Shown here one piece after another: positions 3,156 to 39,920 of a stretch of 44,642 bases of DNA; position 1 is the first letter of the stretch, and every line of letters begins with the position of its first letter. The stretch covers positions 1-44,642 of the forward strand of contig JAGQIK010000228.1 of assembly GCA_020431405.1 (NCBI GenBank), written 5' to 3'. The translations under genes and the position numbers were made by a program. This DNA comes from Myxococcales bacterium (GTDB taxonomy: Bacteria > Myxococcota_A > Polyangia > GCA-2747355). The notes under the pieces are model-generated. The model saw nothing but the letters and a program-made list of their open reading frames with translations, was not told the origin of the DNA and ran no database searches.

Positions 3156-3345
3156 GGCGCGGGGACTATACCGTTCTACTCACCCGAGTCGAGCCGCTGC
3201 CTGCCGCTGCCGCCGCGGCTCCGAGGATCGCCTAGACCTCGCTGCTTTTCGGACGTTGCCCGGTCGCTACAAGCGCCGCCGCCCCGGAAATGCCAGCACA
3301 TTGCAGCCTCGACCTGTTGGCGCGCCGGTTGCTTCGACGAGGCGC

Positions 3346-6451: not shown

Positions 6452-6554
6452 TCCACCGCGACGCCGGCGCGGTGATTGCTGTCAGGGACAAGAGTCGGCA
6501 AGATGGCCAAGCTCGCAAGGCGCGAGCGTGCCTGCAGTGTCGGCAAATGGAGGG

Positions 6555-7217
6555 ATGATGCGCACAATTGTCGTCGTCGCCGCCTGCACTCTGGCCGCTC
6601 TGACCGCTTGCGGCCCGACCACGCCGCCGGTCAACGGCCCCTCGCTCGCGGCACCCGCCACGCCGCAGTCGGCGTTCTGCGCCCCCGAAAACCCCTGCCC
6701 AGGCATGTACATCAAGAAGTATCAGGTCTGCGGCGAGTGCGACCCCGAGACGCGCTACTTCAAGCAGCGCATCTGCTCGCTCGGCGAGAAGCTGCGCAAC
6801 GTCGTCAACTCGTGCGTCAAGGGCAAGGTCGGCGTGCGCTTCGCCGGCAAGGAGCTGTTCGGCTCCAAGGTCCAGGGCTGCGTCAAGCAGCAGCTGCAGA
6901 ACGAGCCGTTGGTCCTCAAGAGCTACATCGCGCTGGCCAGCGAGCACAAGGTCAGCGACAAGGACAAGCGCGAGTGGCGTCAGCAGTGTGACGCCAAGTG
7001 GTCGCAGTTCATCATCACGCACCCTGACGCGATCACGGGACCCAAGACGCGCCCCGTCGCGCAGGTGACGCCGATCTACAAGAAGTGGTGGTTCTGGACG
7101 ATCATCGGCGCGGCCGCGGCGGGTGCCGGCGCCGCGGTGGTGATCGGCACGCAGGTTGGCGGCGCGTCGTTGACGCAGGTGCCGTGGAGCTCGATGCAGC
7201 AGGGGCTGCGCCGATGA
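6555..7217 (+). CDS. Cys-rich lipoprotein, paralogue 1, with C-terminal transmembrane segment
   Basis: Two ATGs (6555, 6558) follow GGAGGG; either gives a lipoprotein signal with lipobox LTAC (lipidated Cys at residue 18 or 19). The mature domain has eight cysteines and the pattern CPGxxxKKxxVCGxCDP, then TRYFxQxxCSLxEKxR and a later GCVxQxLxNEP, shared with the proteins at 9017 and 26984. I know of no named family with this pattern. Unlike its paralogues it ends with a hydrophobic segment starting KKWWFW (about residues 175-200), a style of C-terminal anchor common in myxobacterial envelope proteins. Its stop overlaps the ATG of the next gene (ATGA), so the two are translationally coupled. 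Confidence 0.8.
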   Translation: MMRTIVVVAACTLAALTACGPTTPPVNGPSLAAPATPQSAFCAPENPCPGMYIKKYQVCGECDPETRYFKQRICSLGEKLRNVVNSCVKGKVGVRFAGKELFGSKVQGCVKQQLQNEPLVLKSYIALASEHKVSDKDKREWRQQCDAKWSQFIITHPDAITGPKTRPVAQVTPIYKKWWFWTIIGAAAAGAGAAVVIGTQVGGASLTQVPWSSMQQGLRR

Positions 7218-9010
7218 GGCCGCCGGCAACCGCACTGATCACGCTGCTGGTCTCTTCGGTGCTGGCCACCGCGTGCGCCAAGGACGAGACGTGCAGCGCG
7301 CCGGGCGTGCTGGTCAGCATTGGCGTCGACGCCAACGTCAAGATCGAAGACATCGTCAAGATCGGCATCGAGGCGTCGCTCGACACGTCGCGCCGCACGG
7401 GTGAGCTCTCGGCCGGCGCCGTGGGGCTCGGCAGCGGCGACGCCGACCGGTTCGCGCTCACGTTCACGAACAAAGAGATCACGAGCACGCACACCCTGGA
7501 GCTAACGCTCAGCGCCTTCGACCGCGATGGCGCGCTCGTCGCCATCGGTCGCGCCGATCCAGCGATCACGGTGCGTGCGGGTGAGGCCTGCGCCTCCGCG
7601 GTCGTCACCCTGCTGCCACCCACCGGCGGCAACGCGGCCGTGGTCGACCTCTCCAAGCCCGGCGCGAAGCCCGATGTCGAGCTGACGGCGACGGCCGGCA
7701 CGGGCCCGATCGTCGTGTGTGACTTCAATGGCGACGGCGTTGACGATATCGCCTTCGCCGCGCCACAAGCCGATGGGGAGCTCGGCAGGCAGAACGCAGG
7801 CGAGGTCTACCTGCTCTTCGGACCCGAGCTCGGCGGTGCGCAGGGAGTGACGGAGGTGACCAAGGCCCAGGTGGCGATGAAGGTCGTGGGTGGCGCACCG
7901 GGCGACGGCATTGGCGCGTCGCTCGCTTGTGCTGACCTCGATGGCATGCGCGGAGACGATCTGATCATCGGCGCACCCGAGGCTGGCAACGCCGGCAGGG
8001 TCTACGTCTTCTTCGGCAGGACGAAGCCGACGTCGTCGGTGATCGACCTCTCTACCGCGAGCGCCGACGCCGAGATCGGCAGCGCTAACGCCGGCGATCG
8101 CTTCGGCGCCGCCCTCGCCGTCGCGCGCGGCTTCGCCAGCGGCAAGCTCGGCTCGCTGATCGTCGGTGCTCCGGGCGCCGGCTCGGGCGGCGCGGCCTAC
8201 ATCATCGGTGGCCGTGACGAGGCGGCCTGGGGAGCGGGCGTCGATCTTGCCACGGACGGCGCGCTGCTGACCGTCGTCGGTGCGGCAGGCGAGGGGCTCG
8301 GTGCGGCGCTCGCCAGCGGAAACCTGCTCGGAGACACCGACGATCGCCAGGACGTGGCCATCGGCGCCCCGCAGGGCGGCAAGAGCGGCTGCTCTGACTG
8401 CGGTGTCGTTCGCGTCGTGGCCGCGAAGGTCATCGCGGCAAGCGCGACCATCGACGTCGCCCAAGGCGAGCACGCGTTGACGGTCTGGGGCGCCAGCGGC
8501 GCCTCCAAGCTGGGTCAAAGCCTCGCCATCGGCGATCACGACGGCGATGGTCTCGGCGACCTGTTGATCGGGGCGCCCAACGACGAGGGCAAGGGCAAGG
8601 TCTACGTCGTCGTCGGCGACGCCAGCCTGCTCGCCGCCAGCGGCCAGCCCGCTAACGCGATCGAGATCAAGGACGGGCACAAGGCCGTGTATCTCGGCAC
8701 TACGGGCAGTCAGCTGGGCAGCGCGGTCGCCGCGAGCGGCGGCGCCGGGTCGAGGGCCGATCTGATCGTCGGGGCGCCTGGGATTGATTCCAGCAAGGGC
8801 GCCGTCTATCAGTTCGTTGGCCACGCCCTCGCGCCCAAGGAGACGATTCAACTGGAGGACGCGCGCCTCAAGACGGTGCTCGGTGCCAAGCAAAACGACC
8901 GCTTGGGAGCATCCGTCGCCTCCGGCTTGTTTGGCTCCGACAGCGCGGTGGACCTGATTATCGCAGCGCCTGGGGCCAAGACGGTCTACGGCATCTTCAG
9001 CACCAAGTAG
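7214..9010 (+). CDS. FG-GAP repeat beta-propeller lipoprotein
   Basis: The start is the ATG at 7214 inside the ATGA overlap with the upstream gene; it gives a lipoprotein signal with lipobox LATAC (Cys21). The 598-aa product has an N-terminal domain of about 160 residues and then integrin-alpha-like FG-GAP repeats with calcium-loop motifs such as DFNGDGVDD, DLDGMRGDD and DHDGDGLGD, each followed by an IxGAP turn. About seven blades are visible. Such propellers usually bind proteins or glycans at the cell surface. It is tightly coupled to both Cys-rich lipoproteins, so it may form an outer-membrane complex with them (inference). Confidence 0.85.
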   Translation: MRPPATALITLLVSSVLATACAKDETCSAPGVLVSIGVDANVKIEDIVKIGIEASLDTSRRTGELSAGAVGLGSGDADRFALTFTNKEITSTHTLELTLSAFDRDGALVAIGRADPAITVRAGEACASAVVTLLPPTGGNAAVVDLSKPGAKPDVELTATAGTGPIVVCDFNGDGVDDIAFAAPQADGELGRQNAGEVYLLFGPELGGAQGVTEVTKAQVAMKVVGGAPGDGIGASLACADLDGMRGDDLIIGAPEAGNAGRVYVFFGRTKPTSSVIDLSTASADAEIGSANAGDRFGAALAVARGFASGKLGSLIVGAPGAGSGGAAYIIGGRDEAAWGAGVDLATDGALLTVVGAAGEGLGAALASGNLLGDTDDRQDVAIGAPQGGKSGCSDCGVVRVVAAKVIAASATIDVAQGEHALTVWGASGASKLGQSLAIGDHDGDGLGDLLIGAPNDEGKGKVYVVVGDASLLAASGQPANAIEIKDGHKAVYLGTTGSQLGSAVAASGGAGSRADLIVGAPGIDSSKGAVYQFVGHALAPKETIQLEDARLKTVLGAKQNDRLGASVASGLFGSDSAVDLIIAAPGAKTVYGIFSTK

Positions 9011-9016
9011 CGAAGG

Positions 9017-9529
9017 ATGACGACAGTGCGTACAGCACTCGCTCTGGCAATGATCCTCGCCGTCCCGGCCTGCGCCTCGAGTACGGCCGGAAACAAGCCA
9101 TCTTCGGGCACCGTCGGCTCGCCGATGTCCAACTACTGCGCCAGCAAAGAGCCCTGCCCCGGCATCTCGCGCAAGAAGTTCGAGGTCTGCGGCTCCTGCG
9201 ACCCCTCGACGCGCTACTTCCGCCAAGCGATGTGCTCGCTAGACGAGAAGATCCGCAAGGCCGTGGACTCCTGCGTGCAGGGCAGGGCGTCGATCTCGAT
9301 CACGGGCAAGATAATTTTCGGCGGCAACGTCGCCGGCTGCGTCAGGCAGCGCCTCGAAAACGAGCCGCAGATGCTCGAAGCGTTCACCTCGATCGCCAAG
9401 AAACACGAGGCGACCGAAGGCGAGCAGATGGCGTGGCGCAAGCAGTGCGACCACCTGTGGGCGCAGCACACGGCGAAGAACGGCGGCGGCGGCGCGCCGC
9501 CACCTGCCAAGAAGGCGACCACTCCGTAG
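9017..9529 (+). CDS. Cys-rich lipoprotein, paralogue 2
   Basis: A 170-aa lipoprotein with lipobox VPAC (Cys19). After a short Ser/Gly spacer comes the same eight-cysteine domain as in the proteins at 6555 and 26984, with CPGISRKKFEVCGSCDP and TRYFRQAMCSLDEKIR clearly visible. It is closer to the 26984 copy than to its neighbour at 6555: both share the lead VGSPMS-YCAS and VCGSCDP. It consists of the bare domain plus a short Gly/Pro/Lys tail. It starts 6 bp after the propeller gene and its stop codon directly abuts the ATG of the sigma-54 activator, so it is in the same transcription unit. Confidence 0.8.
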   Translation: MTTVRTALALAMILAVPACASSTAGNKPSSGTVGSPMSNYCASKEPCPGISRKKFEVCGSCDPSTRYFRQAMCSLDEKIRKAVDSCVQGRASISITGKIIFGGNVAGCVRQRLENEPQMLEAFTSIAKKHEATEGEQMAWRKQCDHLWAQHTAKNGGGGAPPPAKKATTP

Positions 9530-11440
9530 ATGAGCGACAACGACGGCCCGCATCACGACGCGACGATGCCGCTCTCGGCGGCAGATCTGCAGCTTCTCGC
9601 CAAGCAGCGCACGCGCCGACCGGCGTTGATGCTGCTGATATACGAGCACGGCGTGACGCGCACCGAGGTGCTCGCCGAACGCGGCGGCCTCGTCGTTGGC
9701 CGCGACGAGCCCGCTGACATCGTCATCGCCGACGCCACGCTGTCACGACGACACGCGCGCCTGACGCGCGAGGGCGATCGCATCCTTGTCGAGGACCTGG
9801 CATCGACCAACGGTACGCGCGTCAACGGCACGCGCGTCGAGCGCGCGCACGCGGGCGCGGACGACGAGCTCCAGTTCGGCGGCGTCAGCGCCTCGGTGCT
9901 CGCCCCCACCGCGCAGCAGGGCCTCGAAGAGGGGCTGCTCGGGCATGACTCGTTCAGCGAGCTCGTGCGCTACGAGACGGCGCGCTGTCGCGAGCTTCGC
10001 GGTCGGGCTGCGCTGTTGATGCTCGCGCCCACGCGGCGCGAGACGTCCGCGCGGCCGGCCGCGGCGTGGTGGCGTGCCATGCGAGTTGAGCTGCGCGCCG
10101 TCGATCGGCTCGCGCTCTACGGTCAGAATGTGGTCGAGCTGATCTTGCCGCAGGCTGACGAGGCCGAGGCCATAGCGACAGCGCGCCGCCTGATCGATGC
10201 CTGCGCCGCGCGCGTCGAGCTGGCTTGCGGCGCGGCGCTGCTGCCCAACTCGGCGACCTCAGCAGAGTCGCTGGTGCAGGCTTGTCGCTCGGCGCTCGGC
10301 GCCGCCCGCCGGCGACATCGGGGCGAAGACATCATCGTCGCGGAGGATCGCGGCCAGCCGCAGCGCGACGCAGCGCCCGACCAGTCGCCCGCCGACGAGC
10401 CGGTCGTAGCCAGCGCGACCATGCGCGAGCTGTACGAGATCGTCGAGCGCGTGGCGCCTGCTGCGATCCCGGTGCTGATCCAGGGCGAGACCGGCGCCGG
10501 CAAAGAGCTCGTCGCCGCTGCGATCCACCGCCGGTCGAACCGCCACGGGGGCCCGCTGTGCTCGCTCAACTGCGGCGCGATCCCGCGCGACCTCGTCGAG
10601 AGCGCGCTCTTCGGCCACGAGAAGGGGGCCTTCACGGGCGCGGCCCAGCGGCGCGAAGGCGTCTTCGAGGCGGCCGATGGCGGCACGGTGTTTCTCGACG
10701 AGATAGGCGAGCTGTCGTCCGAGGCGCAGGTGGCGTTGCTGCGCGTGCTCGAGACGAAGCGCCTCACGCGCGTTGGCGGTCGCGACGAGATCGCCGTCGA
10801 CGTGCGCATCGTCGCCGCCACACATCGCGACCTCGAGCAGATGGTGTCGGACGGCGAGTTTCGTCTCGACCTGTTCTATCGCCTCAACACGATGATGCTG
10901 CGCGTGCCGCCGCTGCGCGAGCGTCGCGAAGAGATCGCGCCGCTCGCTCGACGCTTCATGGCGTTGGCCAACGAGGAGAACGGTCGCAGCGTCGGCGAGA
11001 TCGCGCCGCTGGCGCTGCGCGCGCTCGAGCGCCACGTCTGGCCCGGCAACGTACGCGAGCTTCGCAACGCCATCGACCGCGCCGTCGTCATCGCGGGCGG
11101 CGACACGATCACGCTCGAAGATCTGCCCGAGCGCGTGCGCGCGCTGGGACGCACGGGTGCTGACCCGAGCCGGCAACGTGCCGCGCCGCCGAGCGAGGAC
11201 AGACCCCAGGACCCACCTCAGCAGGCGGGTCTCGAAGCGCTGCTCGCCGACGCGCTGCGCGGCGACGAGGCCGATGTCGACTTCAAGACGCGTATGCAGC
11301 GGCTCGAGGCTCAGCTGATCGTCAGCGCCCTCGAAGCGTGCGACTACAATCAGACCGAGACGTCTCGCCGTCTGCGCATTCCGCTGCGCACGCTGGTCAA
11401 CAAGGTCCGCCAGTACGACCTTTCTCGCCCCGACGAATAG
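9530..11440 (+). CDS. FHA / degenerate GGDEF-like / sigma-54-dependent transcriptional activator
   Basis: A 636-aa regulator in three parts. An FHA domain (about residues 40-125; GRDEPADIVI, SRRH, STNGTRVNG) would bind phosphothreonine. A middle region (about 140-275) follows the GGDEF fold pattern but has LYGQNVVELILP where RYGGDEFxxLLP is expected, so it should be catalytically dead. The AAA+ domain has Walker A GETGAGKE (from residue 319), the sigma-54-contacting GAFTGA (366-371) and Walker B GGTVFLDEIGE, and is intact. A C-terminal Fis-type helix-turn-helix follows (about 600-636). It is the last gene of the peptidase/lipoprotein run, starting right after the preceding stop. It probably controls this cluster, the propeller genes downstream, or both, in response to a Ser/Thr kinase (inference). 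Confidence 0.92.
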   Translation: MSDNDGPHHDATMPLSAADLQLLAKQRTRRPALMLLIYEHGVTRTEVLAERGGLVVGRDEPADIVIADATLSRRHARLTREGDRILVEDLASTNGTRVNGTRVERAHAGADDELQFGGVSASVLAPTAQQGLEEGLLGHDSFSELVRYETARCRELRGRAALLMLAPTRRETSARPAAAWWRAMRVELRAVDRLALYGQNVVELILPQADEAEAIATARRLIDACAARVELACGAALLPNSATSAESLVQACRSALGAARRRHRGEDIIVAEDRGQPQRDAAPDQSPADEPVVASATMRELYEIVERVAPAAIPVLIQGETGAGKELVAAAIHRRSNRHGGPLCSLNCGAIPRDLVESALFGHEKGAFTGAAQRREGVFEAADGGTVFLDEIGELSSEAQVALLRVLETKRLTRVGGRDEIAVDVRIVAATHRDLEQMVSDGEFRLDLFYRLNTMMLRVPPLRERREEIAPLARRFMALANEENGRSVGEIAPLALRALERHVWPGNVRELRNAIDRAVVIAGGDTITLEDLPERVRALGRTGADPSRQRAAPPSEDRPQDPPQQAGLEALLADALRGDEADVDFKTRMQRLEAQLIVSALEACDYNQTETSRRLRIPLRTLVNKVRQYDLSRPDE

Positions 11441-11739: not shown

Positions 11740-14700
11740 GTGGGTCCTGTACGGAGGGCGTCGCGCCTAGGGTGGCTCTGGCTGCTGGTCGCAGCGACTG
11801 GCTGTCTGCAGTCGCAGCAGGCTGACCGCGGCGGCGGTGGAGCAGCCCGTGCGCCGGCGGCTGTCATGCCGCTGGCGCGAATCGAGCGCGTGGCCGACGG
11901 GTCGAAAGTCGCGGCCACGCGGCTGGTCGCGACGCGGGGGGCGAAGAGCGCCTACACGGTGCGCGCGCTCCTTGCTGGCGGCTTTGCAGCGCTTAACGCG
12001 CGGCAGGGGCTGCGAGCGCGCTTCGGCGCCGCGGGCATGGCGCGTGTCAGCGCGCTCTCTACCGCTAAGCAGGCGCGCTTTTCACTATCGCTGCGCGCCG
12101 CGCGCTGGGGATACGGTGACGCGCTGCGAGCGCTTGCTGCTGTGACCAGCGTGCGCGCGCGTGGCGCGCGTGTCGTCATCGGGCGCCCCGAGGGCGTCAC
12201 CGAGTGGTACGACAACAGCCCGCGCGGCCTCGAGCACGGCTTCACGCTGGCACGGCCGCCGTCCACACGCCGCGGTGCCGAGGCGCTAGTGATCGAGCTG
12301 GCAGTCGCTGGCGCGCGCGCGAGCCTGGTCGGCGGCGAGGTGCGTCTGCGCGACGCCGCCGGCCGCGCGCTGGCGCGCTACCGCGCGCTGCAGGTGTTCG
12401 ACGCCGCCAACAAGCGCCTGCCCGCGCGCCTCGCCGTGACATCGGGCGCGATCCGTCTCGTCATCGACGATCGCGCCGCGCGCTATCCGCTGCACGTCGA
12501 CCCGGTGATCGTCACCGAGTCGTTCATCGCCAAGGGCCATGGTCAGGTGCGTTTTGGCCAGGTGGTCGCGATCAGCGGCGACACGGCGGTGGTGGGATCG
12601 CCTGGCGACGACCAGGTGGCCGCCGACGGTGGCGCGGTCACCGTCTTCGTGCGCGGCAGCAACGGGTGGGTCGAGCAGGCCAAGATCGTCGCAGCAGACG
12701 GCGCCGCGGGTGACCGATTCGGGACGGCGGTTGCGATCGAAGGCGACACGCTGCTCGTCGGCGCGCCCTTTGATGACGACAAGGGCGCGGACTCGGGCTC
12801 GGTCTATGTCTACACGCGCAGCGGCGGGCAGTGGTCGCAACAACAGAAGCTCGCGGCGTCGAACGCCATGGCCAACGATCGCTTTGGCGAGCGGCTGGCG
12901 ATCGACGGCGACAGCGCTCTGATCCGCGCCTGGTCGGAGCGTACGCCGGGATTGCTCGAGGGTTTCGTCTACGTCTTCGTGCGCGGCGGCGGCGGCGGCT
13001 GGGGCGAGCAGGCACTGCTCCCACCGAGCGGCTCCCGCACCGACTACGGCAGCGCGATCGCCATCGCGGGCGACCGGGCCGTGGTCTGTGGCGACGGCGC
13101 ATCGACGTACGTTTTTCTGCGCTCGGGAAGCAGCTGGAGCGAGGAGCAGGTGATCACGGACTCCGCTGTGGCCGTCGCCATCGACGGCGACACGATCGTG
13201 ATTGGACCTAGCGTCTACGTACGCGGCTCGACGTGGGCCTTCGATGCCATGCTGATGGGGACTGGCAGCAACGAGTCTTTCGCGCGCGCTGTATCGCTCA
13301 GCGGGTCGCGCGTGCTGATGGGCGCGCCGTCCGGCGACATGCTGGGCGGGGGCGCTGCCTACGTCTTCGTTCGCGATACCAGCGGCTGGACCCTCGAGAG
13401 CAAGCTCACCGCCACCGAGTGGAGCTTCGGCAAGGCGGTGGCGCTCGACGGCGACCGTGCCGTCGTCGGCGCTCCGGAGGACGCCACTCGCGGCGCGGCC
13501 TTCGGATCGGCGACGCTCTTTGCGCGAAGCGGCGCCAGCTGGTCGCAGGAGGCGCAGGTCTTTCCGTCCGCCGAGCGCTTGGGTGACTTCGGCGCCGCGC
13601 TGGCGCTGAGCAACGACACGCTGGCGGTAGGCGCGCCGCGCACCGAGGTTGGCGCTGGCCAGCGCGGCGTGGTCGGCATCTATGTTCGTCAGTCGCCGGG
13701 CAGCTGGAGCGAGCAGCAGGTGCTCTCCGCGCCTGACGGCGCTGACGACGATCGTTTCGGCGCCGCCGTGGCCGTCGATCAGGACACGGTGGCGATCGGT
13801 GCACCGGGTGACGACGACAAGGGCGCCGACTCGGGCTCGGTTTACGTCTCGGTGCGCACGGGCAGCAGCTGGAGCCAGCCGGTGAAGCTCACCGCGAGCG
13901 ACGGTGCGGCGGGCGATGGCTTCGGCCGCGCTGTCACCGTCAGCGGCAACACGCTCGCCGTCGGGGCGCCGGGTCGCGACGATGACGGCCAAGATTCGGG
14001 CGCGGTCTACGTTTTCGTGCGCGCTTCAGGAGCGTGGAGCCAGCAGCAGAAGATCACCGCCGGCAGCGATGGCGCGGCCGGCGACGGCTTCGGCGTCGCG
14101 CTGGCTCTGGGCGGCAATACGCTGGTTGTCGGTGCGCCCGACGACGACGACGCGGCCAATGGCACGGATGCCGGCTCGCTCTACATCTACCAGCGCAGCG
14201 CTGCCGGGGCGCAGTTCGCCAAGCAGCAGAAGATCGTCGCCGCGGCGGGCGCGAGCAACGCGCGGCTGGGCGAGAGCGTGGCGCTGAGCGGCGACACCAT
14301 CGCAGCGGGGGCTGAAGAGCCAACGCAGGCCGCCAGTCAGAGCGGGGCGGTCTACATCTTCGTGCGTCCACCGGGCGGCAGCAGCTGGGCGCAACAGGTA
14401 CGGACGCCCGCCGTCGGCGGCAGCGGCTACATGGGCCGCGCCGTGGCGCTGAGCGGCGACACGCTCGTCGCGCCGGGCACACTCGGCTTCAGGCTGGTGC
14501 CGCAGGTCCTCGTACGCAACGCGGCGCAGGTATGGCGCCCCGCCGCGCGGCCGGAGATCACCAAGGGGCCATACGTCGCGCAGCGCTTCGACTTCGGCGA
14601 CAGCGGCCAGCACTTCCGCGCCCTCGCGGGCACGCGGAATGTGGTGGTCGTCTCCGCCTCCGAGGGCAGCACCATCCCCGACGCGGTCACCATCTTCGAG

Positions 14701-15570
14701 CTCGACTTCCTCGACGACGGCGCCACCTGCGACGTCGCCAATCCCGACGCGTGCTACAGCGGCGTCTGCTTTCAGAGCGCGTGCTGCCACGACGCGTGCG
14801 CCGACCTGTGTCACCGCTGCGACGCGGCGCCGTTTTCGTGCACGCCGGTTTCGCAGCACGTCGACGACACGGCGGGCAGCGATCAGTGCACGGGCGACAA
14901 GACGTGCAACGGCAAAGGCGACTGCTTGCTCAAGAACGGCAAGACGTGCGCGCAGCCGAGCGACTGCGCCAGCGGCTTCTGCGTCGACGGCGTGTGCTGC
15001 GAGTCGGAGTGCAAGGGCAACTGCGAGTCGTGCGCGCTGGGCGGCCAGGGCAAGTGCGAGCCGCACCCCAAGGGCAGCGATCCGGACAAAGACTGCCTCG
15101 GCACGGACGCCGACTGCGGCGGCACCTGCGACGGGGCGGGCGCCTGCGATTTCCCGGGCATCGGCACGCGCTGCGGCGCCAAGCCCTGTCAGGCTTGCGA
15201 CGGCACGGGGCGCTGCAACACCAAGCCGCCCGACGACGACGCCTGCGGCGTGATCGACTGCGACCAGCTCGACACGACGTGCCGCGACTACCAAGACCTC
15301 GACGCCGAGCGCTGCGCGGCCTTCGGCCAGTGCAAGGTCGCCAACGACCCGGCGACGTGTACGAAGGCGACGGACCTCCCGTGTGGCGACGGCGGCGCGA
15401 GCGGCGATGGCGGCGCGAGCGGCGACGGCGCGAGCGTTGGCGACGGCGGCGGCTGCAGCGCGCTCGGCAGCGTGCGGAGCGGAATCAATGGACTGCTGTT
15501 GCTGGCGCTGCTGCTGTTGCAGTTGCTGGGCGTGCGGCGGCGGCACAGGACGACGCGAGAAGGGAGCTGA
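11740..15570 (+). CDS. Giant FG-GAP propeller surface protein with lipobox and MYXO-CTERM tail, copy 1
   Basis: A GTG start with AGAGAGG six bases upstream. The 1276-aa product begins with a lipoprotein-like signal (AATGC, Cys22). Residues 50-250 form an N-terminal domain shared with the next gene, including EWYDNSPRGLEHGFT. A long FG-GAP array (about 255-960) follows, with repeats of the GDTLxVGAPxDDDKG and SGSVYVYTR type. Then comes a Cys-rich region (about 1005-1225) with many CxxxxxC units such as GFCVDGVCC, a Gly/Asp/Ser linker, and a C-terminal GGC, a hydrophobic helix and RRRHR. That last tripartite tail is the MYXO-CTERM surface-sorting signal of Myxococcota. Three bases separate it from its paralogue. 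It is probably a surface adhesin or ligand-binding protein. Confidence 0.9.
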   Translation: MGPVRRASRLGWLWLLVAATGCLQSQQADRGGGGAARAPAAVMPLARIERVADGSKVAATRLVATRGAKSAYTVRALLAGGFAALNARQGLRARFGAAGMARVSALSTAKQARFSLSLRAARWGYGDALRALAAVTSVRARGARVVIGRPEGVTEWYDNSPRGLEHGFTLARPPSTRRGAEALVIELAVAGARASLVGGEVRLRDAAGRALARYRALQVFDAANKRLPARLAVTSGAIRLVIDDRAARYPLHVDPVIVTESFIAKGHGQVRFGQVVAISGDTAVVGSPGDDQVAADGGAVTVFVRGSNGWVEQAKIVAADGAAGDRFGTAVAIEGDTLLVGAPFDDDKGADSGSVYVYTRSGGQWSQQQKLAASNAMANDRFGERLAIDGDSALIRAWSERTPGLLEGFVYVFVRGGGGGWGEQALLPPSGSRTDYGSAIAIAGDRAVVCGDGASTYVFLRSGSSWSEEQVITDSAVAVAIDGDTIVIGPSVYVRGSTWAFDAMLMGTGSNESFARAVSLSGSRVLMGAPSGDMLGGGAAYVFVRDTSGWTLESKLTATEWSFGKAVALDGDRAVVGAPEDATRGAAFGSATLFARSGASWSQEAQVFPSAERLGDFGAALALSNDTLAVGAPRTEVGAGQRGVVGIYVRQSPGSWSEQQVLSAPDGADDDRFGAAVAVDQDTVAIGAPGDDDKGADSGSVYVSVRTGSSWSQPVKLTASDGAAGDGFGRAVTVSGNTLAVGAPGRDDDGQDSGAVYVFVRASGAWSQQQKITAGSDGAAGDGFGVALALGGNTLVVGAPDDDDAANGTDAGSLYIYQRSAAGAQFAKQQKIVAAAGASNARLGESVALSGDTIAAGAEEPTQAASQSGAVYIFVRPPGGSSWAQQVRTPAVGGSGYMGRAVALSGDTLVAPGTLGFRLVPQVLVRNAAQVWRPAARPEITKGPYVAQRFDFGDSGQHFRALAGTRNVVVVSASEGSTIPDAVTIFELDFLDDGATCDVANPDACYSGVCFQSACCHDACADLCHRCDAAPFSCTPVSQHVDDTAGSDQCTGDKTCNGKGDCLLKNGKTCAQPSDCASGFCVDGVCCESECKGNCESCALGGQGKCEPHPKGSDPDKDCLGTDADCGGTCDGAGACDFPGIGTRCGAKPCQACDGTGRCNTKPPDDDACGVIDCDQLDTTCRDYQDLDAERCAAFGQCKVANDPATCTKATDLPCGDGGASGDGGASGDGASVGDGGGCSALGSVRSGINGLLLLALLLLQLLGVRRRHRTTREGS
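14761..15435 (+). repeat. Near-identical Cys-rich coding block, copy 1 (pairs with 18640-19314)
   Basis: This segment encodes the Cys-rich domain of the first giant propeller protein. It aligns to 18640-19314 at a constant offset of 3879 bp. In the 480 bp I compared base by base (14881-15360) there are 12 mismatches, and only two change an amino acid. The propeller parts of the two genes are far more divergent, which suggests recent gene conversion or strong selection on this block. Confidence 0.85.
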
Positions 15571-15573
15571 TTC

Positions 15574-18500
15574 GTGCGCACACGTACCGCGGTCGCGATG
15601 TGCCTGGCGTGGGCGCTGCTCGCGGCGACGGGCTGTATCCAGAGCCAACAGGCCGATAGCAGGCCCGCCGGCAATGCGGCTCCGCTGGCCACCATCGAGC
15701 GGCTGGCCGATAGCGTCGCCGGCGGCGCGCGCATCGCCACGACCCGTATCGCCGCCGGGCGCATCGGCGCCACGGGCCTCGGCGTTGGTGTCGCTTCAGC
15801 GGAGAGCTACCACGCGAGGGCCGGGGCCACGCCGCGCAGCTTCGACGCGCTCAACGCGGCGCAGCGCCTGCGAGTGCGCTTCGACGCGGTGGGCGCCGCG
15901 CACCTGCGCTCGCTGTCCGCGTCAGCAGTGTTCACGATCTCGCTGCGTGCCGCGCGCTGGGGTTACGGCGAGGCGCTGCGCGCTTGGCGCCGCGTGACGA
16001 GCGCGCGCGCCGCCGGACGGCGCGTCCGCTACGAGCGCGCGGGCGACGGCGTGACCGAGTGGTACGACAACAGCCCGCGCGGCCTCGAGCACGGCTTCAC
16101 GCTGGCGCGCCCGCCGTCCACGCGCCGCGGCGCCGAGCCGCTGGTGATCGAGCTTGCACTCACCGGCGCGCGCGCGAGCCTCGCAGGCGACGAGGTGCGT
16201 CTGCGCGACGCCGCGGGCCGCGTGCTGGCGCGCTATCGCGCGCTGCAGGTGCTCGACGCCGCCAACAAGCGCCTCTCCGCGCGCCTCGCCGTGGCATCCG
16301 GCGCGATCCGCCTCGTCATCGACGATCACACCGCACGTTACCCGTTGCGCGTCGATCCCGTGCTCGTCACCGAGTCGTACATCGAGAAGGGGCATGGTGT
16401 CGTGAGGTTTGGCGAGGCCATCGCGCTCAGTGGCGACACCGCGGTGATCGGCTCGCCCGGCGACGACAGCAAAGGGACCGATGCTGGCGCCGCTTATGTC
16501 TTCGTGCGCGGCGCCAGCGGCTGGGTCGAGCAGGCCAAGCTCGTCGCTTCGGACGGCGCCGCCGGCGACGCCTTTGGCATCACGGTGGCCATCGACGGTG
16601 ACACCGTGCTCGTCGGCGCGCCCAGAGACGATGACAAGGGCAGCGAATCGGGCTCGGTGTACGTCTACGTGCGGTCCGGCGCGCAGTGGAGCCTGCAGCA
16701 GAAGATCGTCGACGCCGCCGGCCAAGCCGACGATCACTTCGGCAGCGCCGTCGCGCTCGACGGCGATACCGCGCTCGCGAGCATCCGTCCAAACGTAGCC
16801 GGATCGACGGGACCCAGTAGCGTGTCCGTGCTGGTGCGCAGTGGAAGCAGCTGGAGCGGGCAGGGGCGGCTCGTGCCAACCAGCGGGTTGACCACCTCTT
16901 TCTTTGGCGGCGCGCTCGATATCAGCGGCGACACGGCGGTGGTTGGCGACACGCATCTTGGTGTGGCCTTCGTCTTCGTTCGAAGCGGCACGAGCTGGAG
17001 CGAGCAGCAGAAACTCGCGGCGGGGCCCGGCAAGTTCGGCGCTTCCGTCGCCGTCGACGGTGACGCGATGGTCGGTTGCTCGTTGACCGGTGACCGCGCC
17101 TGCTACGTCTTTCGTCGCAGCGGTACGTCGTGGAGCGAAGAAGGCCAGCTGCCGCCGCCGACCACCGCCGACGTCGACTTTGGCCGTGCGGTCGACATCA
17201 GCGGCTCGCGCGTGATCGTCGGCGCCCCCGGGGCACAGACCGATCCAGGGGAAGCGTACGTCTTTCAGCGCGGTGCGAGTGGCTGGGACAGCGGCACGAG
17301 CTTGACGGGCAACGGCCGCTCGGAATTCGGTCGGGCCGTGGCGATCGACGGCGACCGCGCGCTCGCCGCGTCGTCCGAGGACCCCACGGTGGCGCCGTAT
17401 TTCGGAGCCGTATACGCGTACGCGGTCAACGGCGCCGCGTGGCCACAAGATGGCCAGCTCGTACCCTCTGCCGATTGGTCAGGCGAATTCGGCGCGGCGC
17501 TGTCGGCGAGCAAGGGCACCCTCGTCGTGGGCGCTCCGAGCCGCGTGCTCAATGGCGAGCGCCGCGGCGAAGCTGGCGTGTACGTCAGGCAAGCCGCGGG
17601 CACCTGGAGCGAGCAGCAGGTGTTGGTGGCCTCCGACGGCGCAGACGCCGATCGCTTCGGCGTGGCGGTCGCCATCGATGGCGACACGGCCGTCGTCGGG
17701 GCTGACGGCGACGACGACAAAGGCGCCGAGGCGGGCTCGCTTTACGTGTTCACACGGGCATCGGGCAGCTGGAGCCAGCAGCAGAAGCTCGTCGCCGCCG
17801 ATGGGGCTGCCGGCGACAAGCTCGGCCACGTGGTGGCCGTCAGTGGCGATACCCTCGCGGTGGCGGCGCCGGCGGACGACGACAAGGGGCAGGACTCGGG
17901 CTCGGTCTACGTGTTCACACGCGCATCGGGTACCTGGAGCCTGCAGCAGAAGATCGTCGCCGCCGATGGCGCCGCCGGCGACGGCTTGGGTGCAGCGCTC
18001 TCGCTCGACCGCGACACGCTGGCCATCGGCGCACCCGATGACGACGACCGAGGTGATGGCTCAGGCGCCGTCTACGTGTTCCAGCGATCGGCGGGCACGT
18101 GGACGCTGCAGCAGAAGATCGTGCCGGGTGACGGCACGGCCGGGGCACGCTTTGGCCTCAGCGTCGCGCTCGAAGGCGACAGCGTCGCGGCGGGCTTCGA
18201 TGATGGGACCCAAAGCGGCGTGTATGTCTTCGCGCGCTCGGCGGGCAGCTGGAGCCAGCAGGTCAAGCTGTTGCCCGAGGCCGGCGCCGCCAGCTACGCC
18301 ATGGGCAAGACGATCGCGATGTCGGGGAATGTGCTGTCCGCTGGCGAGCGTCGCTACACGACGACGAGCTCCGCCTCGGACTTCAAGCTGGCGCCACCGA
18401 TTCTCGTGCGCGACGCCGCTGGTAGCTGGCGCCAGCGGCTGCGCCTCTCGTTCGGCAGCGGCCCGTTCCTCGATGACGTGGTCTCGAGCGCCTCGGCCTT

Positions 18501-19455
18501 CACCGCGCTGGCCGTCGCGGACCGCACAGTTTTTCTCGGCTTTGGCAACACGTTCTATATGCCCGGTCTGGTCTACATCTTCGAGCTGACATTCGAAGCC
18601 GACGGCGCCACCTGCAGCGACGCCGACTCGTGCTTCAGCGGCGTGTGCTTTCAGAGTGCGTGCTGTCACGACGCGTGCGCCGACTTGTGTCACCGCTGCG
18701 ACGCGGCGCCGTTTTCGTGCACGCCCTTCGCGCAGTACGCCGAAGATACGATGGGCAGCGATCAGTGCACGGGCGACAAGACGTGCAACGGCAAGGGCGA
18801 CTGCTTGCTCAAGAACGGCAAGACGTGCGTGCAGCCGAGCGACTGCGCCAGCGGCTTCTGCGTCGACGGCGTGTGCTGCGAGTCGGAGTGCAAAGGCAAC
18901 TGCGAGTCGTGCGCGCTGGGCGGCCAGGGCAAGTGCGAGCCGCACCCCAAGGGCAGCGATCCGGACAAGGACTGCCTCGGCACGGACGCCGACTGCGGCG
19001 GCACCTGCGACGGCGCGGGCGCGTGCGACTTCCCGGGCATCGGCACGCGCTGCGGCGCCAAGCCCTGTCAGGCCTGCGATGGCACGGGGCGCTGCAACAC
19101 CAAGCCGCCCGACGACGACGCCTGCGGCGTGATCGACTGCGACCAGCTCGACACGACGTGTCGCGACTACCAAGACCTCGACGCCGAGCGCTGCGCGGCG
19201 TTCGGCCAGTGCAAGGCCGCCAACGACCCGGCGACGTGTACGAAGGCGACGGACCTCCCGTGCGGCGACGGCGGCGCGGGCGGCGATGGCGGCGCGAGCG
19301 GCGACGGCGCGACGGGCGCTGGCGATAGCGGCGGCTGCAGCTGTCGCGTGGCCGCGCGACCGGACGGGTCGCTGGCCGTGCTCTCGCTTCTCGCGTTGGT
19401 CGCGCTGCTGCGACGACGTCGCCGTCGGGGAGGGCTGGTTGCCGCGCGCCGCTGA
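15574..19455 (+). CDS. Giant FG-GAP propeller surface protein with lipobox and MYXO-CTERM tail, copy 2
   Basis: A GTG start with AGAAGGGAG eight bases upstream, just after the stop of copy 1. The 1293-aa product has the same architecture: a signal with AATGC (Cys21), the EWYDNSPRGLEHGFT-containing N-terminal domain, an array of FG-GAP units (GDTAVIGSPGDD, SGSVYVYVR and similar), the Cys-rich block and a C-terminal GGCSC, a hydrophobic helix and RRRRRR. That tail is a textbook MYXO-CTERM signal, and its GCSC motif is more canonical than the GGCSA of copy 1. The two genes are a tandem duplication in one transcription unit. Having both a lipobox and a sorting tail would allow two anchors or a processed N-terminus; which applies is not visible from sequence. 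Confidence 0.9.
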   Translation: MRTRTAVAMCLAWALLAATGCIQSQQADSRPAGNAAPLATIERLADSVAGGARIATTRIAAGRIGATGLGVGVASAESYHARAGATPRSFDALNAAQRLRVRFDAVGAAHLRSLSASAVFTISLRAARWGYGEALRAWRRVTSARAAGRRVRYERAGDGVTEWYDNSPRGLEHGFTLARPPSTRRGAEPLVIELALTGARASLAGDEVRLRDAAGRVLARYRALQVLDAANKRLSARLAVASGAIRLVIDDHTARYPLRVDPVLVTESYIEKGHGVVRFGEAIALSGDTAVIGSPGDDSKGTDAGAAYVFVRGASGWVEQAKLVASDGAAGDAFGITVAIDGDTVLVGAPRDDDKGSESGSVYVYVRSGAQWSLQQKIVDAAGQADDHFGSAVALDGDTALASIRPNVAGSTGPSSVSVLVRSGSSWSGQGRLVPTSGLTTSFFGGALDISGDTAVVGDTHLGVAFVFVRSGTSWSEQQKLAAGPGKFGASVAVDGDAMVGCSLTGDRACYVFRRSGTSWSEEGQLPPPTTADVDFGRAVDISGSRVIVGAPGAQTDPGEAYVFQRGASGWDSGTSLTGNGRSEFGRAVAIDGDRALAASSEDPTVAPYFGAVYAYAVNGAAWPQDGQLVPSADWSGEFGAALSASKGTLVVGAPSRVLNGERRGEAGVYVRQAAGTWSEQQVLVASDGADADRFGVAVAIDGDTAVVGADGDDDKGAEAGSLYVFTRASGSWSQQQKLVAADGAAGDKLGHVVAVSGDTLAVAAPADDDKGQDSGSVYVFTRASGTWSLQQKIVAADGAAGDGLGAALSLDRDTLAIGAPDDDDRGDGSGAVYVFQRSAGTWTLQQKIVPGDGTAGARFGLSVALEGDSVAAGFDDGTQSGVYVFARSAGSWSQQVKLLPEAGAASYAMGKTIAMSGNVLSAGERRYTTTSSASDFKLAPPILVRDAAGSWRQRLRLSFGSGPFLDDVVSSASAFTALAVADRTVFLGFGNTFYMPGLVYIFELTFEADGATCSDADSCFSGVCFQSACCHDACADLCHRCDAAPFSCTPFAQYAEDTMGSDQCTGDKTCNGKGDCLLKNGKTCVQPSDCASGFCVDGVCCESECKGNCESCALGGQGKCEPHPKGSDPDKDCLGTDADCGGTCDGAGACDFPGIGTRCGAKPCQACDGTGRCNTKPPDDDACGVIDCDQLDTTCRDYQDLDAERCAAFGQCKAANDPATCTKATDLPCGDGGAGGDGGASGDGATGAGDSGGCSCRVAARPDGSLAVLSLLALVALLRRRRRRGGLVAARR
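18640..19314 (+). repeat. Near-identical Cys-rich coding block, copy 2 (pairs with 14761-15435)
   Basis: The second copy of the direct repeat described at 14761-15435. As a direct repeat of about 675 bp separated by 3.2 kb, it is a plausible site for homologous recombination that would fuse the two genes into one chimera and delete one gene's worth of DNA. Confidence 0.85.
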
Positions 19456-23919: not shown

Positions 23920-25299
23920 GTGACGGACTCGCTGATCGGCACGCGCCTCGGCAACTTCGAGCTCACCAGTCGGCTCGGCAGCGGCGGCATGGGCGACGTC
24001 TACGCCGGCACACACGCGATCCTCGGTCACCACGTGGCCGTCAAGCTGATGCGGCCCGCGCTGCTCTCGACGAACCCCGAGCACGCCGTGCAGCGCTTCA
24101 TCACCGAGGCGCGCGCGTTGACGCAGATCGACAGCGCGCACGTGATCCGCCTGCACGACTTCGGTCGTATGGAGGGTGGCGCGCTCTACTACGTGATGGA
24201 GCACCTCGAAGGGCACGACCTCGAGCACGAGCTCGCCGGTCGGCTGCCGCTTTCGCCGCGCGAGGCGCTGGTCTACATCGAGCAGATCGCCGCCGGCCTT
24301 GGCGCCGCTCACCGCCAAGGCATCGTGCACCGCGACCTCAAGCCGGCCAATGTCTTCGTCTGCCCCGGCGAGGACGGTCGCCCCTTCACGCTCAAAGTGA
24401 TCGATTTCGGCATCGCCAAGGACCTCAGCACCGAGCAACAGATCACCGTCGGCGCGCTCGGTACGCCCTTCTATGCGGCACCAGAGCAGGTCGCCGGCGA
24501 AGCGGTCAGCGCGGCGACGGACATCTACGCGCTCGGCGTGATGCTCTATCAGATGCTCACCGGCGAGCTGCCTTTCGAGGTCGCCGAGGGCACCAGCCCG
24601 ATCGCGATCTTGCTCGCCGCGCTTGAGAAGCCGCCCATCTCGGCGACGCAGCGCGTGCCTTCATTGCCGCCGGCGCTTTCGGGGCTGCTCGATCGGTGCC
24701 TCGCCAAAGTGCCGTCCGAGCGGCCAGCCTCGGCAGACGCGCTCTTTCGCGAGCTGCGCGAGATCGTCGCGCCGGCGCAGCTGCCGCCGACCGTCGTCGC
24801 GCCGGCGCAGCTGCCGCCGACCGTCGTCGCGCCGACACCGACACCAACGGCCACGCCGACGCCGACGCCGACGCCGACGCGTGGACGTGCGCCGCTGCTC
24901 GTCGCGGCAGCGCTGCTGGTGGTCGCTTGCGTCGTGGTCGGCGTCGTGCTCGTGAAGCGCGGCTCGGGCACAGTGCGCAGCGCAGCTGGCACGTCGAGCG
25001 CTGTCAAGGCCGACACGTCGCCGCCCGGTCGCGCGCTCGAAGCGCCGAGCAGAGTGCACCGCACCAGCGTCGAGATCGACGCGGCCGTGGCGAGCGCAGC
25101 GACGGCGAGCGACTCGGCAGCGAAGCGACCCGTCAAGAAGACGCCGCACCCGCACGCGCGCCCTCAGCAGCCCAACATCGCCGCGAAGAAGAACAAGAAG
25201 CACAAAAAGAGCGAGCCGCAGCCCGCTAAGAGCGGACCGCGGCCCAAGACAAAAAAGCGCACCCCGTTGATCGACTCGGACGACGTCCTGCCGCCCTGA
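23920..25299 (+). CDS. Transmembrane Ser/Thr protein kinase
   Basis: GTG start at 23920; no clear Shine-Dalgarno sequence. The 459-aa product has a complete Hanks-type kinase domain (about residues 12-280): LGSGGMGDVY, VAVKLM, HRDLKPANVF, DFGIAK, APEQ. A proline/threonine linker with an exact 30-bp repeat follows, then one transmembrane helix (about 325-347), and a Lys/Pro/Ser-rich extracytoplasmic tail ending in a KKNKKHKKSE-type basic stretch. The tail has no PASTA or other known sensor domain; a cationic tail could contact peptidoglycan, LPS or DNA (inference). It is co-directional with the symporter, 48 bp away. Confidence 0.9.
   Translation: MTDSLIGTRLGNFELTSRLGSGGMGDVYAGTHAILGHHVAVKLMRPALLSTNPEHAVQRFITEARALTQIDSAHVIRLHDFGRMEGGALYYVMEHLEGHDLEHELAGRLPLSPREALVYIEQIAAGLGAAHRQGIVHRDLKPANVFVCPGEDGRPFTLKVIDFGIAKDLSTEQQITVGALGTPFYAAPEQVAGEAVSAATDIYALGVMLYQMLTGELPFEVAEGTSPIAILLAALEKPPISATQRVPSLPPALSGLLDRCLAKVPSERPASADALFRELREIVAPAQLPPTVVAPAQLPPTVVAPTPTPTATPTPTPTPTRGRAPLLVAAALLVVACVVVGVVLVKRGSGTVRSAAGTSSAVKADTSPPGRALEAPSRVHRTSVEIDAAVASAATASDSAAKRPVKKTPHPHARPQQPNIAAKKNKKHKKSEPQPAKSGPRPKTKKRTPLIDSDDVLPP
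24771..24830 (+). repeat. Exact 30-bp tandem duplication in the kinase linker
   Basis: Two identical 30-bp units (24771-24800 and 24801-24830) encode APAQLPPTVV twice. They are followed directly by a CCGACG/CCGACA-type simple repeat (about 24831-24882) encoding alternating Thr-Pro. Both lie in the juxtamembrane linker, where copy-number change would keep the frame and alter only linker length. Confidence 0.85.
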
Positions 25300-25311: not shown

Positions 25312-26817
25312 CTAGGGCACGAGCTCGCCAACAAACCAGGTCGACGCCGGGATCCAGACCTCGGTGGCCGTCGCGCCATCGCCCCAGTTGACGCGGAAGG
25401 CGATCTCGGTCGAGCCGTCGGACCAGTAGCGGTACGAGTAGCCGTAGGCGAGCGCGTAGTGCAAGGACGTGCCCGAGCCGATGCCGATGATCACCGGGCG
25501 CCAGGTGTTGATGATGTTGATCGCGTCCTGCAGCAGGCCGCCGTCGGCGACGTAGAAGAGGTTGTAGTTGGTGCGGATGCCGGCGAAGTCACGACCGACG
25601 AGGTAGTAGACAGCCTTGTACATGTTGATCTGCGCCGTGGCGCCTTGGTCGAGCAGGCAGAACGTGCCGAGGCGCGCGCGAAGCTCCATGGTCATGTTGT
25701 TGACGCCCTGGTCCTGAATCTGTGGCGCGACGACGTCAGCGCCGTAGCCGCCCCACGCGCGGTAGATGCCCCAGTGGCTGCTCCACATAGAGCCCGTTTG
25801 CGCCGCGCGGTGGTCCGCGTAGCCGAGCAGCATCGCCCACGCCGTGGCGCCGCAGCCGCTCGAGCAGCTGTTCTGGTTGTTGGCGGTCCAGGGCGGGATC
25901 TGGTCGTAGCCGAGCTGCGCCGTAGCGCCGCCCTCGGTGTCGTGGCCGAACTGCCAGGCGGTCACCGGGTGCAGCCCCATGCGCTTGGACGACACGAGGC
26001 CGTCGGCGTTGGCGGTGGCGAGCGGCGCGACGTCGGCGCGGCGCTCGAGCTTCCAGGCGTTGGCGGCGCGTTTGGCCAGCGCGGCCAGCTGCGGAGCGTA
26101 GCGCTCGCCATAGCTCGCCTTGAGCTCGCGCCACGGAAGCGGCGCTGCAACCTTCATCTGCGGCGTGAAGCGCTTGACCGTGTCGAAGCGTGCGCCGTCG
26201 AAGCGCTCGAGGCCGACCACGCGCGGCTGCTCGCCGCGGCGCTCGACGCGGGTGACCAGCTCGCCGCCGACCACGCGCTTGCTGCCATCGAGCGCCGGCT
26301 TCCAGACCGTGCGGTAGATGTCATCGCGCCGCGCGTCGGGCGAAGCCTGCACGTCGATCTGCTTGGGCAACGGACCGACGTGCGCGACGAGCTCGCCGCG
26401 ATCGTCCTCGGCGGCGTACGACAGCGCGTCGAGCTTGTAGAAGCGCGCCACCGACTTGCCCGCGCGGTCGGCCTTGGCGAGCAGCTGCGCGGTTGGCGAC
26501 GCGCCGCTCGTAGACCACTGCGCAATGGGATGATCGTGCGCCGCGGTGGAGACGACGATGTAGCCGCGCGGATTGACCAGCACCTCGTAGTACGCGACGC
26601 CCGCGACGTCGGGGCGGTAGATCGGCGTGAGCTGATCGGAGAGCGTCGCGTCGGCCCAACCCGGGCTCGAGCGCAGATGCGTCGCGGCGCGCTTCAGTGC
26701 GGCGCTGCGCAGGGTGTGCTGCGCGTCGGCGGGCGCGTTTTCCGCGACGCCGCAGGCGCACAGCAGCGACAGGCAAGAAAGCAGAACGACGGCGAGTATC
26801 GAGACATGTCGTTTCAT
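25312..26817 (-). CDS. C10-like (streptopain-type) cysteine peptidase lipoprotein
   Basis: The ATG at 26817 is preceded by GAGGAG at six bases and starts a lipoprotein signal with LCAC (Cys22); the open frame further upstream is low-complexity and discarded. The 501-aa product has a propeptide-like N-terminal region with GYIVVSTAAHDHPIAQWSTS, which resembles the C10 pro-domain motif. The catalytic domain has NSCSSGCGATAWAMLLGY with candidate nucleophile Cys322, GTSLHYALAYGY with His453, and VNWGDG near the end. SpeB-type enzymes have the same order of C-x-AT-A, H and W-G motifs. It is probably an outer-membrane-anchored or released protease active outside the cytoplasm. It lies 166 bp downstream of the Cys-rich/TPR lipoprotein gene on the same strand. 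Confidence 0.8.
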   Translation of the reverse strand: MKRHVSILAVVLLSCLSLLCACGVAENAPADAQHTLRSAALKRAATHLRSSPGWADATLSDQLTPIYRPDVAGVAYYEVLVNPRGYIVVSTAAHDHPIAQWSTSGASPTAQLLAKADRAGKSVARFYKLDALSYAAEDDRGELVAHVGPLPKQIDVQASPDARRDDIYRTVWKPALDGSKRVVGGELVTRVERRGEQPRVVGLERFDGARFDTVKRFTPQMKVAAPLPWRELKASYGERYAPQLAALAKRAANAWKLERRADVAPLATANADGLVSSKRMGLHPVTAWQFGHDTEGGATAQLGYDQIPPWTANNQNSCSSGCGATAWAMLLGYADHRAAQTGSMWSSHWGIYRAWGGYGADVVAPQIQDQGVNNMTMELRARLGTFCLLDQGATAQINMYKAVYYLVGRDFAGIRTNYNLFYVADGGLLQDAINIINTWRPVIIGIGSGTSLHYALAYGYSYRYWSDGSTEIAFRVNWGDGATATEVWIPASTWFVGELVP

Positions 26818-26969
26818 GGCGGGCTCCTCTCGGTTTGGGGGCCAAGGCCCCGTGGTGCTGCACGAGGGAAAAGCACGACCCGTGCCACGAGATGAGCTGT
26901 GTATTGTCGAGGTGTTGTGCCGCGGCCGAGGACAGTGCGCCGAAGTTGCGCGCAGCGGCTGCGTAGTGC

Positions 26970-26983: not shown

Positions 26984-28201
26984 CTACTGGAGCGACTTGA
27001 TCTTGGCGAGGATCGCATCGGCGTCGGCGTGGTCTTTGCCGTGCGCCTTCTTGTAGGCGGCTAGGAAGGCCTTGTAGACGGCGGCGGCGTCCTTGTTGCG
27101 CCCGAGCTTCTCGAGGCAGACGCCCATGTTGTGCAGCGCGTCGTCGGCGAAGCGCGCGCGCTGTTTCGGATGGTGCGCCTGCCAGCGCCCGAGGGCGATG
27201 CGGTACTGCGTCAGCGCGCCTCTGTGGTTGTCGAGCTTGAACAGCGCCTGCGCCATCTCGAAGCGCGCGCGCTCCTCGAGCGGATACGCTTTGGCGTCGG
27301 GATACCAGGCGCTCCACTGTCTGAGGTAGCTGCCGAAGGCCATCGCCGCCTTCTGATGCTGGCTCGCATCGCGCCGGGTGATGGCGATGTTGAACAGCAC
27401 GCGCGAGGCGCGCCGGCACGGCGCGTCTTTGCCGAGCTCGGAGATGGTGGCGGGGCGCTTGCTCTTCTCGCACGCGCGCTGCTGATCGGCGAGCGCCACG
27501 ATGTACTTCTTGACGGCGTCGTCGAACTGGCCCGCCTTCTTGAGCGCGTTGCCATTGTTGACCAGCTCGGCGTAGCCCGCGCCCTTGGGCGACTTGGCGA
27601 TCTTGCCGCCACCGCTCGGCGTGTTGGCCATCGTGGCCTTGGCCAACAGCGCCTTGTTGTACGTCTTGACCTCGACCGGCTTGGCGATAGGCGGCGCCGG
27701 GTCGTTGACCGTGCGCACGTAGGTCGCGCCGGTGTGCTGTGCCCAAAGGCGATCGCACTGCTCGCGCCAAGCGGCCTGCTCGGCCTCGGTGGCCTTGTGC
27801 TTCTTGGCGATGGCGGTGAACGCCTCCACCATCTGCGGCTCGTTTTCGAGCCGCTGTGTGACGCAGCCGACGACAGTGCCTTCGAAGATGTTCATGCCCT
27901 TGATCTGGAACTTGGCCTTGCCCTGCACGCACGAGTCGATCGCCTTGCGCACCTTCTCGTCGAGCGAGCACATCGCCTGGCGGAAGTAGCGCGTGGCCGG
28001 ATCGCACGAGCCGCAGACCTCGAACTTCTTCTTCGACAGCCCAGGGCAGGTGTTGCTGCTGGCGCAGTAGCTCGACATCGGCGACCCGACGGTCGCCGAG
28101 GAAGGCTTGATCGTCGGGCCGCTGACGCAGGCCGGCAGTGCCAGCGTGAAGAGCAAGGAGGCAGCCACACGGGCTGCGCCACTAGGAGGCAATCGGATCA
28201 T
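26984..28201 (-). CDS. Cys-rich lipoprotein, paralogue 3, fused to TPR repeats
   Basis: The ATG at 28201 has GGGAG eight bases upstream. The lipoprotein signal ends in LPAC (Cys25). Residues about 38-165 are the same eight-cysteine domain as at 6555 and 9017 (CPGLSKKKFEVCGSCDP, TRYFRQAMCSLDEKVR, NEPQMVEAFTAIAKKH). A linker follows, then an alpha-helical C-terminal region (about 205-405) with tetratricopeptide-like units such as NNGNALKKAGQFDDAVKKY and LHNMGVCLEKLGRNKDAAAVYKAF. The TPRs suggest a scaffold for protein partners at the envelope. It precedes the C10-like peptidase on the same strand. The domain fusion supports a binding role for the Cys-rich module. Confidence 0.82.
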   Translation of the reverse strand: MIRLPPSGAARVAASLLFTLALPACVSGPTIKPSSATVGSPMSSYCASSNTCPGLSKKKFEVCGSCDPATRYFRQAMCSLDEKVRKAIDSCVQGKAKFQIKGMNIFEGTVVGCVTQRLENEPQMVEAFTAIAKKHKATEAEQAAWREQCDRLWAQHTGATYVRTVNDPAPPIAKPVEVKTYNKALLAKATMANTPSGGGKIAKSPKGAGYAELVNNGNALKKAGQFDDAVKKYIVALADQQRACEKSKRPATISELGKDAPCRRASRVLFNIAITRRDASQHQKAAMAFGSYLRQWSAWYPDAKAYPLEERARFEMAQALFKLDNHRGALTQYRIALGRWQAHHPKQRARFADDALHNMGVCLEKLGRNKDAAAVYKAFLAAYKKAHGKDHADADAILAKIKSLQ

Positions 28202-28358
28202 GGCAGTGCTCCCGCGGACGAGTGATCTTCTCGGTCGCCCTTCGATGCGTCAAGGCGGATGCACGCTCGGTGCCACGCACCGCAGCACCTCTGAGAGCTG
28301 TCATGGCGCTCTGTCGAGGCGGCCGACGCAACATTAGCGCGCAGCATGCGCGCGATCG

Positions 28359-39661: not shown

Positions 39662-39920
39662 GGCCGCCTCCTTGGATCGCTAGCGTCCAGCTAGGTCGAA
39701 AGCATCGCTCGTGCCGAGGCGAGCACCTCTACCTTCGCCACGTTACGCGCTGGCGCGCGTGCGCATCGGTGCGCGCTGATCCGGTTCGGCCCACGGCGTC
39801 CCTGCTCAGGGTCATCTCGCACCGATCGCACTTTTTCCCGCGGTCAGCCTTCCCACCGCGCGCGGCTCGCGGGTCTCTAGAGCAGCAGTGACGTTCGCGC
39901 TTAGACCACAGGAGCAGCAA

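Follow-up and report, generated by a model that had tools for sequence, protein, structure and literature searches.

An orphan eight-cysteine lipoprotein domain and its possible place in a Ser/Thr-kinase/FHA-sigma54 circuit

Introduction

In bacteria of the kind analysed here, Ser/Thr kinases number a hundred or more, and for most of them the input is still to be found. FHA domains bind phosphothreonine (PMC2875238), and the FHA-containing sigma54 enhancer-binding proteins of Myxococcus xanthus (Jelsbak, Givskov and Kaiser 2005, cited in PMC12288465) combine FHA, AAA(sigma54) and Fis-type helix-turn-helix domains. The Nfs envelope and spore-coat locus of the same species (PMC2875238) encodes an envelope TPR lipoprotein together with an FHA protein. 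On the kinase side, PASTA-type enzymes (PknB/Stk1) have a kinase domain, one transmembrane segment and an outer segment.

Here we describe three lipoproteins that share an eight-cysteine (8-Cys) domain and are encoded in one window, by which we mean the whole 44.6-kb stretch of DNA analysed. The weight of the finding lies in the convergence of two different C-terminal attachments and an operon on kinase signalling, and in the tail module to which it led.

Results

An orphan domain in three lipoproteins

A sequence-only reading of the window had reported three genes for lipoproteins with an aligned 8-Cys domain, and all three exist where it placed them: protein 1 at 6555..7217 and protein 2 at 9017..9529 on the + strand, and protein 3 at 26984..28201 on the - strand. 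The shared domain occupies residues 41-151, 40-150 and 45-155, respectively (6675..7007 and 9134..9466 on the + strand, 27737..28069 on the - strand), and is 111 residues long in each copy, without gaps. Pairwise identities are 47.7%, 46.8% and 76.6% (blastp E 6e-47, 2e-44 and 5e-68), and the three copies agree in 48 columns, among them the eight cysteines, which are spaced C-x5-C-x10-C-x2-C-x11-C-x12-C-x21-C-x35-C. Within VCGxCDP, neither the CxxC pair (domain residues 19 and 22) nor the flanking G, D and P vary, and there is a single invariant histidine. A dN of 0.15 against a dS of 0.58 (NG86; dN/dS about 0.26) points to purifying selection on copies 2 and 3. Two AlphaFold runs on the three-sequence alignment gave low-confidence models (pLDDT 47 and 55, pTM near 0.3), both of which suggest a beta hairpin and, after it, two helices in the second half of the domain. 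The alignment makes a solid case for a genuine protein module of some 111 residues, one that, as far as searched, is confined to a single lineage and that four disulfides may hold together.

The domain is new to the libraries searched, and the impression that it belongs to no named family was borne out in Pfam, NCBIfam, PHROGs and PDB sequences. NCBIfam at E<=1 returned only a match to the tail region (10 bits of 100) and none to the 8-Cys region; Pfam at E<=10 returned only CPW_WPC, at E 0.5 and in one copy; no PHROGs model matched; and the best PDB sequence matches (E 0.07-0.2) did not match the cysteines. Likewise, none of the thioredoxin, zinc-ribbon or metal-binding models in the profile libraries searched matches the domain. 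The source genome (11.2 Mb, 733 contigs) contains these three copies only, and no relatives were found in the other 317 genomes of the class (318 including the source genome), in a phylum-wide sample of 379 genomes, in 91 genomes from a different class or, by a pattern scan, in plasmids, phages, viral contigs and a species-level genome collection. Weak matches within the class ranged from E 4e-4 to 2; the best of these (L013) was taken as chance because its frame has two stops and lies opposite the neighbourhood of a Cys-rich repeat lipoprotein. As far as searched, the family is thus an orphan restricted to one genome. The order is represented by only four genomes in this search, and a somewhat wider spread is therefore possible. 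Orphan lipoproteins are common in genomes of this kind. Gene content (many Ser/Thr kinases, MYXO-CTERM, FHA-sigma54) together with the genome sizes in the class suggests Myxococcota and probably Polyangia.

Each protein carries a lipobox that can be read from its sequence (LTAC, VPAC and LPAC at residues 16-19, 16-19 and 22-25 of proteins 1, 2 and 3; the proline at -2 in VPAC and LPAC is unusual), and the domain is predicted to be exported by the Sec/lipoprotein route. The three signals had been described as different from one another. The leaders of copies 2 and 3 are not independent, however, because a linker between signal and domain, KPSSxTVGSPMSxYCAS, is common to both, and these two copies therefore probably go back to a single ancestor in which leader and head were already joined. 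The C-termini do differ as had been noted. In protein 1 (lipobox cysteine Cys19) the domain is followed by a proline linker and the C-terminal membrane tail YKKWWFWTIIGAAAAGAGAAVVIG; protein 2 consists of signal, linker and domain with a short tail and no further attachment; and protein 3 continues into a TPR half at about residues 205-405 (Pfam TPR_12, E 3.5e-8).

An operon with an activator gene, and sigma54-like promoter sites

The genes of proteins 1 and 2 lie in a compact + strand cluster. A gene for an FG-GAP repeat lipoprotein (7214..9010; Pfam FG-GAP, E 1e-24) has a start that overlaps the stop of 6555-7217 (ATGA), and we read the two as one operon because of this overlap. Protein 2 follows at 9017-9529, and one base past its stop begins an FHA-AAA(sigma54)-Fis activator (9530..11440; Pfam FHA 1.5e-16, Sigma54_activat 1e-67, HTH_8 1e-8), so that all four genes overlap or abut and can be read as a single operon. 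No kinase gene touches it. As a synteny handle, the FG-GAP lipoprotein had no orthologue in sister genomes. The nearest full-length relative of the activator in the species collection (41%, L151) is encoded between two kinase genes; in that stretch (JAFCZD010000080.1, 1-7440), the FHA-sigma54 activator has Ser/Thr kinase genes on both sides and is followed by an FHA-GGDEF gene.

Next to the operon, two giant FG-GAP proteins are encoded in tandem on the + strand (11740-15570 and 15574-19455). For the greater part of the two proteins the identity is 40-81%, but it reaches 99% over about 100 residues in a Cys-rich segment near the C-terminus, a difference that suggests gene conversion between the two genes. 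A MYXO-CTERM sorting signal (TIGR03901) closes the second protein; the end of the first looks similar, without a model match.

A sigma54 consensus scan of both strands of the 44.6 kb gave six sites scoring >=22, five of which lie 31-90 bp before gene starts on the coding strand, and both 8-Cys transcription units are among those preceded. On the + strand, CGGCGCGGTGATTGCT (6465..6480) is 90 bp before the 8-Cys operon and the site at 3318-3333 is 31 bp before a peptidase C39-like gene starting near 3349. On the - strand, TGGCACCGAGCGTGCA (28260..28275) is 74 bp before protein 3, TGGCACGGGTCGTGCT (26872..26887) precedes the 25312-26817 gene by 70 bp, and the site at 39701-39716 is 55 bp before a gene starting near 39661. 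The excess of sites before genes (P 6e-6 at a score of 22, 8e-4 at 21 and 0.07 at 19) refers to a hand-made consensus and to a threshold set once scores had been seen. Judging by these sites, the genes behind 3318-3333, 26872-26887 and 39701-39716 possibly share a regulon with the 8-Cys units. One other shared upstream element, a match of only 12 bases, was dropped because it lies inside coding sequence.

Attached parts from kinase-linked families

The sequence-only reading missed the activator at the end of the operon, and also that the membrane tail of protein 1 and the TPR half of protein 3 both come from families encoded beside Ser/Thr kinases. The tail (7068..7163, + strand; YKKWWFWTIIG...) was first detected by pairwise matches to other proteins, and a tail profile in which protein 1's own sequence is included matches it at E 8.2e-15. 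The tail is matched 30 times in the source genome and occurs in 78 of 96 class genomes. In the source genome it sits on exported proteins that have no other relationship to one another and of which many contain TPR or PEGA domains. Neither Pfam nor NCBIfam has a model that names the tail, and a literature search on the motif and on PEGA/TPR-kinase pairs found nothing on point. The pattern P-[LIFV]-Y-K-[KR]-W-W-F-W-T-x-x-G describes it in the window, at 30 places in G000 (the source genome), in L023-L037 and in class genomes. The basic residues ahead of the tail helix run counter to the positive-inside rule for the C-terminal anchor of an exported protein.

Of 35 tail genes whose surroundings were read, 14 are accompanied on the same strand by a kinase gene no more than 750 bp away; at two further sites a divergent kinase gene lies within 202 bp. 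The background rate is 1.2% (20 other 12-kb stretches of the same genome group, 240 kb), which gives a binomial P of about 2e-18 against a background of three kinases only. A kinase neighbour is thus common for tail genes and not universal; 21 of the 35 are without an adjacent same-strand kinase. Protein 1 itself has no kinase gene next door, the nearest being 13.7 kb away.

The TPR half of protein 3 (26987..27589, - strand) has only two good homologues in the order, C438 in the source genome (37%, E 3e-35) and C159 in genome G028 (34%, E 2e-27). Each gene comes immediately after a Ser/Thr kinase gene of the same orientation. Neither protein has the 8-Cys head, their signal peptides running almost straight into the TPRs; C159 also bears the membrane tail. 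The window encodes a membrane Ser/Thr kinase with a kinase domain, a transmembrane segment and a Lys-rich outer tail (23920..25299, + strand). With this kinase as query, the C438 kinase ranks second of 149 matches in the source genome (51%), below the C587 kinase and above that of C226, and the C159 kinase ranks second of 55 in G028 (47%), level with the first. Beside the C587 kinase, the closest relative of the window kinase in the source genome (53%), the stretch that was read shows no TPR gene of this kind.

Protein 3 has no same-operon kinase of matching type. The kinase at 23920-25299 lies 1.7 kb from it, and the two are not co-transcribed because the kinase is on the opposite strand with a convergent gene between. 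With some 150 kinases or more encoded in the genome, closeness means little by itself. Nevertheless, because the TPR homologues sit behind kinases closely related to this one, protein 3 is probably its partner, parted from it by local rearrangement. The gene after protein 3 (25312-26817, - strand) encodes a secreted protein in which a papain-like sequence, CSSGCGATAWAML, can be seen by eye and for which Pfam gave no match. The outer segments of the window kinase and of L076 and L074 end in long Lys/Arg-rich runs (KKNKKHKK, KSKSRSKTKTKAKVKAK and GKTRGAGKTR), and these kinases are beside TPR partners or related to kinases that are.

Discussion

The reading that we favour, tentatively and with somewhat less than even confidence, is that the 8-Cys domain is a disulfide-knit envelope input module of a Ser/Thr-kinase/FHA-sigma54 circuit. 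The domain would be the outward-facing head of envelope proteins in that circuit. Protein 3 would be the TPR partner of the kinase at 23920-25299 with a leader and head like those of 9017-9529 grafted in front, protein 1 would join the head to a WWFWT tail of the sort usual among kinase-linked TPR/PEGA proteins, and protein 2 would be the head alone. A contact of the head (presumably with a ligand) or of the TPRs in the envelope would alter kinase activity, potentially through physical contact with the kinase; the resulting phosphothreonine would be recognised, through its FHA domain, by the activator at 9530-11440, which in turn would switch on the sigma54 promoters of both 8-Cys transcription units.

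The domain could instead be a structural or adhesion module of the envelope that holds other surface proteins, such as the FG-GAP lipoprotein, and has no part in signalling, in which case the kinases and the activator would be coincidental. This is a real possibility, to which we give serious if minority weight: the operon is shared with an FG-GAP lipoprotein, many further envelope proteins (OmpA-like proteins and the FG-GAP giants) are encoded in the window, and the genome has at least 150 kinases. However, both independent C-terminal attachments lead to kinase-linked families, and an FHA-sigma54 activator sits within the operon itself. Alternatively, the cysteines might bind metal or switch redox state, with the VCGxCDP pair opening and closing or holding zinc, and thereby make the domain a redox or metal sensor. 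The strict conservation of that pair and its flanking G, D and P would fit, but only one histidine is invariant, no thioredoxin, zinc-ribbon or metal-binding model matches, and exported lipoproteins are normally oxidised, which leaves this option improbable. Finally, newborn or fast-evolving orphans that matter little for fitness and persist through local duplication alone would account for the lack of any relative in the genomes searched but are very improbable because conservation is strict, with 47-77% identity, eight fixed cysteines, no indels, a dN/dS of about 0.26 between copies 2 and 3 and a tight operon structure.

In a fuller account, a new disulfide-knit sensory head born in one lineage was grafted onto kinase partners and came to be controlled by the FHA-sigma54 activator encoded with it, so that the circuit from envelope to promoter would amplify itself, and the WWFWT tail would mark a wide, unnamed class of envelope partners of Ser/Thr kinases; this account is rather unlikely to be correct as a whole. 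Recurrent domains and tails of exported proteins encoded beside these kinases offer concrete candidates for the missing sensors. The narrow 8-Cys family would illustrate how a new head can be joined to an existing kinase partner, and its study led to a tail module that is present in most of the sampled class genomes and unnamed in the libraries searched.

One close comparison is with the kinase-linked secreted WWFWT-tail TPR/PEGA proteins. Protein 1 resembles them in its export signal, proline-rich linker and tail, and protein 3 in its homologous TPR half, whereas they carry TPR or PEGA domains and no 8-Cys head. The Nfs locus is similar in combining an envelope TPR lipoprotein with an FHA protein, although no 8-Cys domain is described there, and the TPRs of protein 3 give it no more than a weak resemblance to the Nfs-related GltC (17.6 bits, with the cut-off at 450). 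The activator has the domain layout given above for the M. xanthus FHA enhancer-binding proteins; unlike them, it is encoded in an operon with lipoproteins. The window kinase is built like the PASTA-type PknB/Stk1 enzymes and matches NCBIfam NF033483 at E 7e-77, below the model cut-off. In contrast to those kinases, its outer segment is a Lys-rich tail, and any sensing would be left to separate partner proteins.
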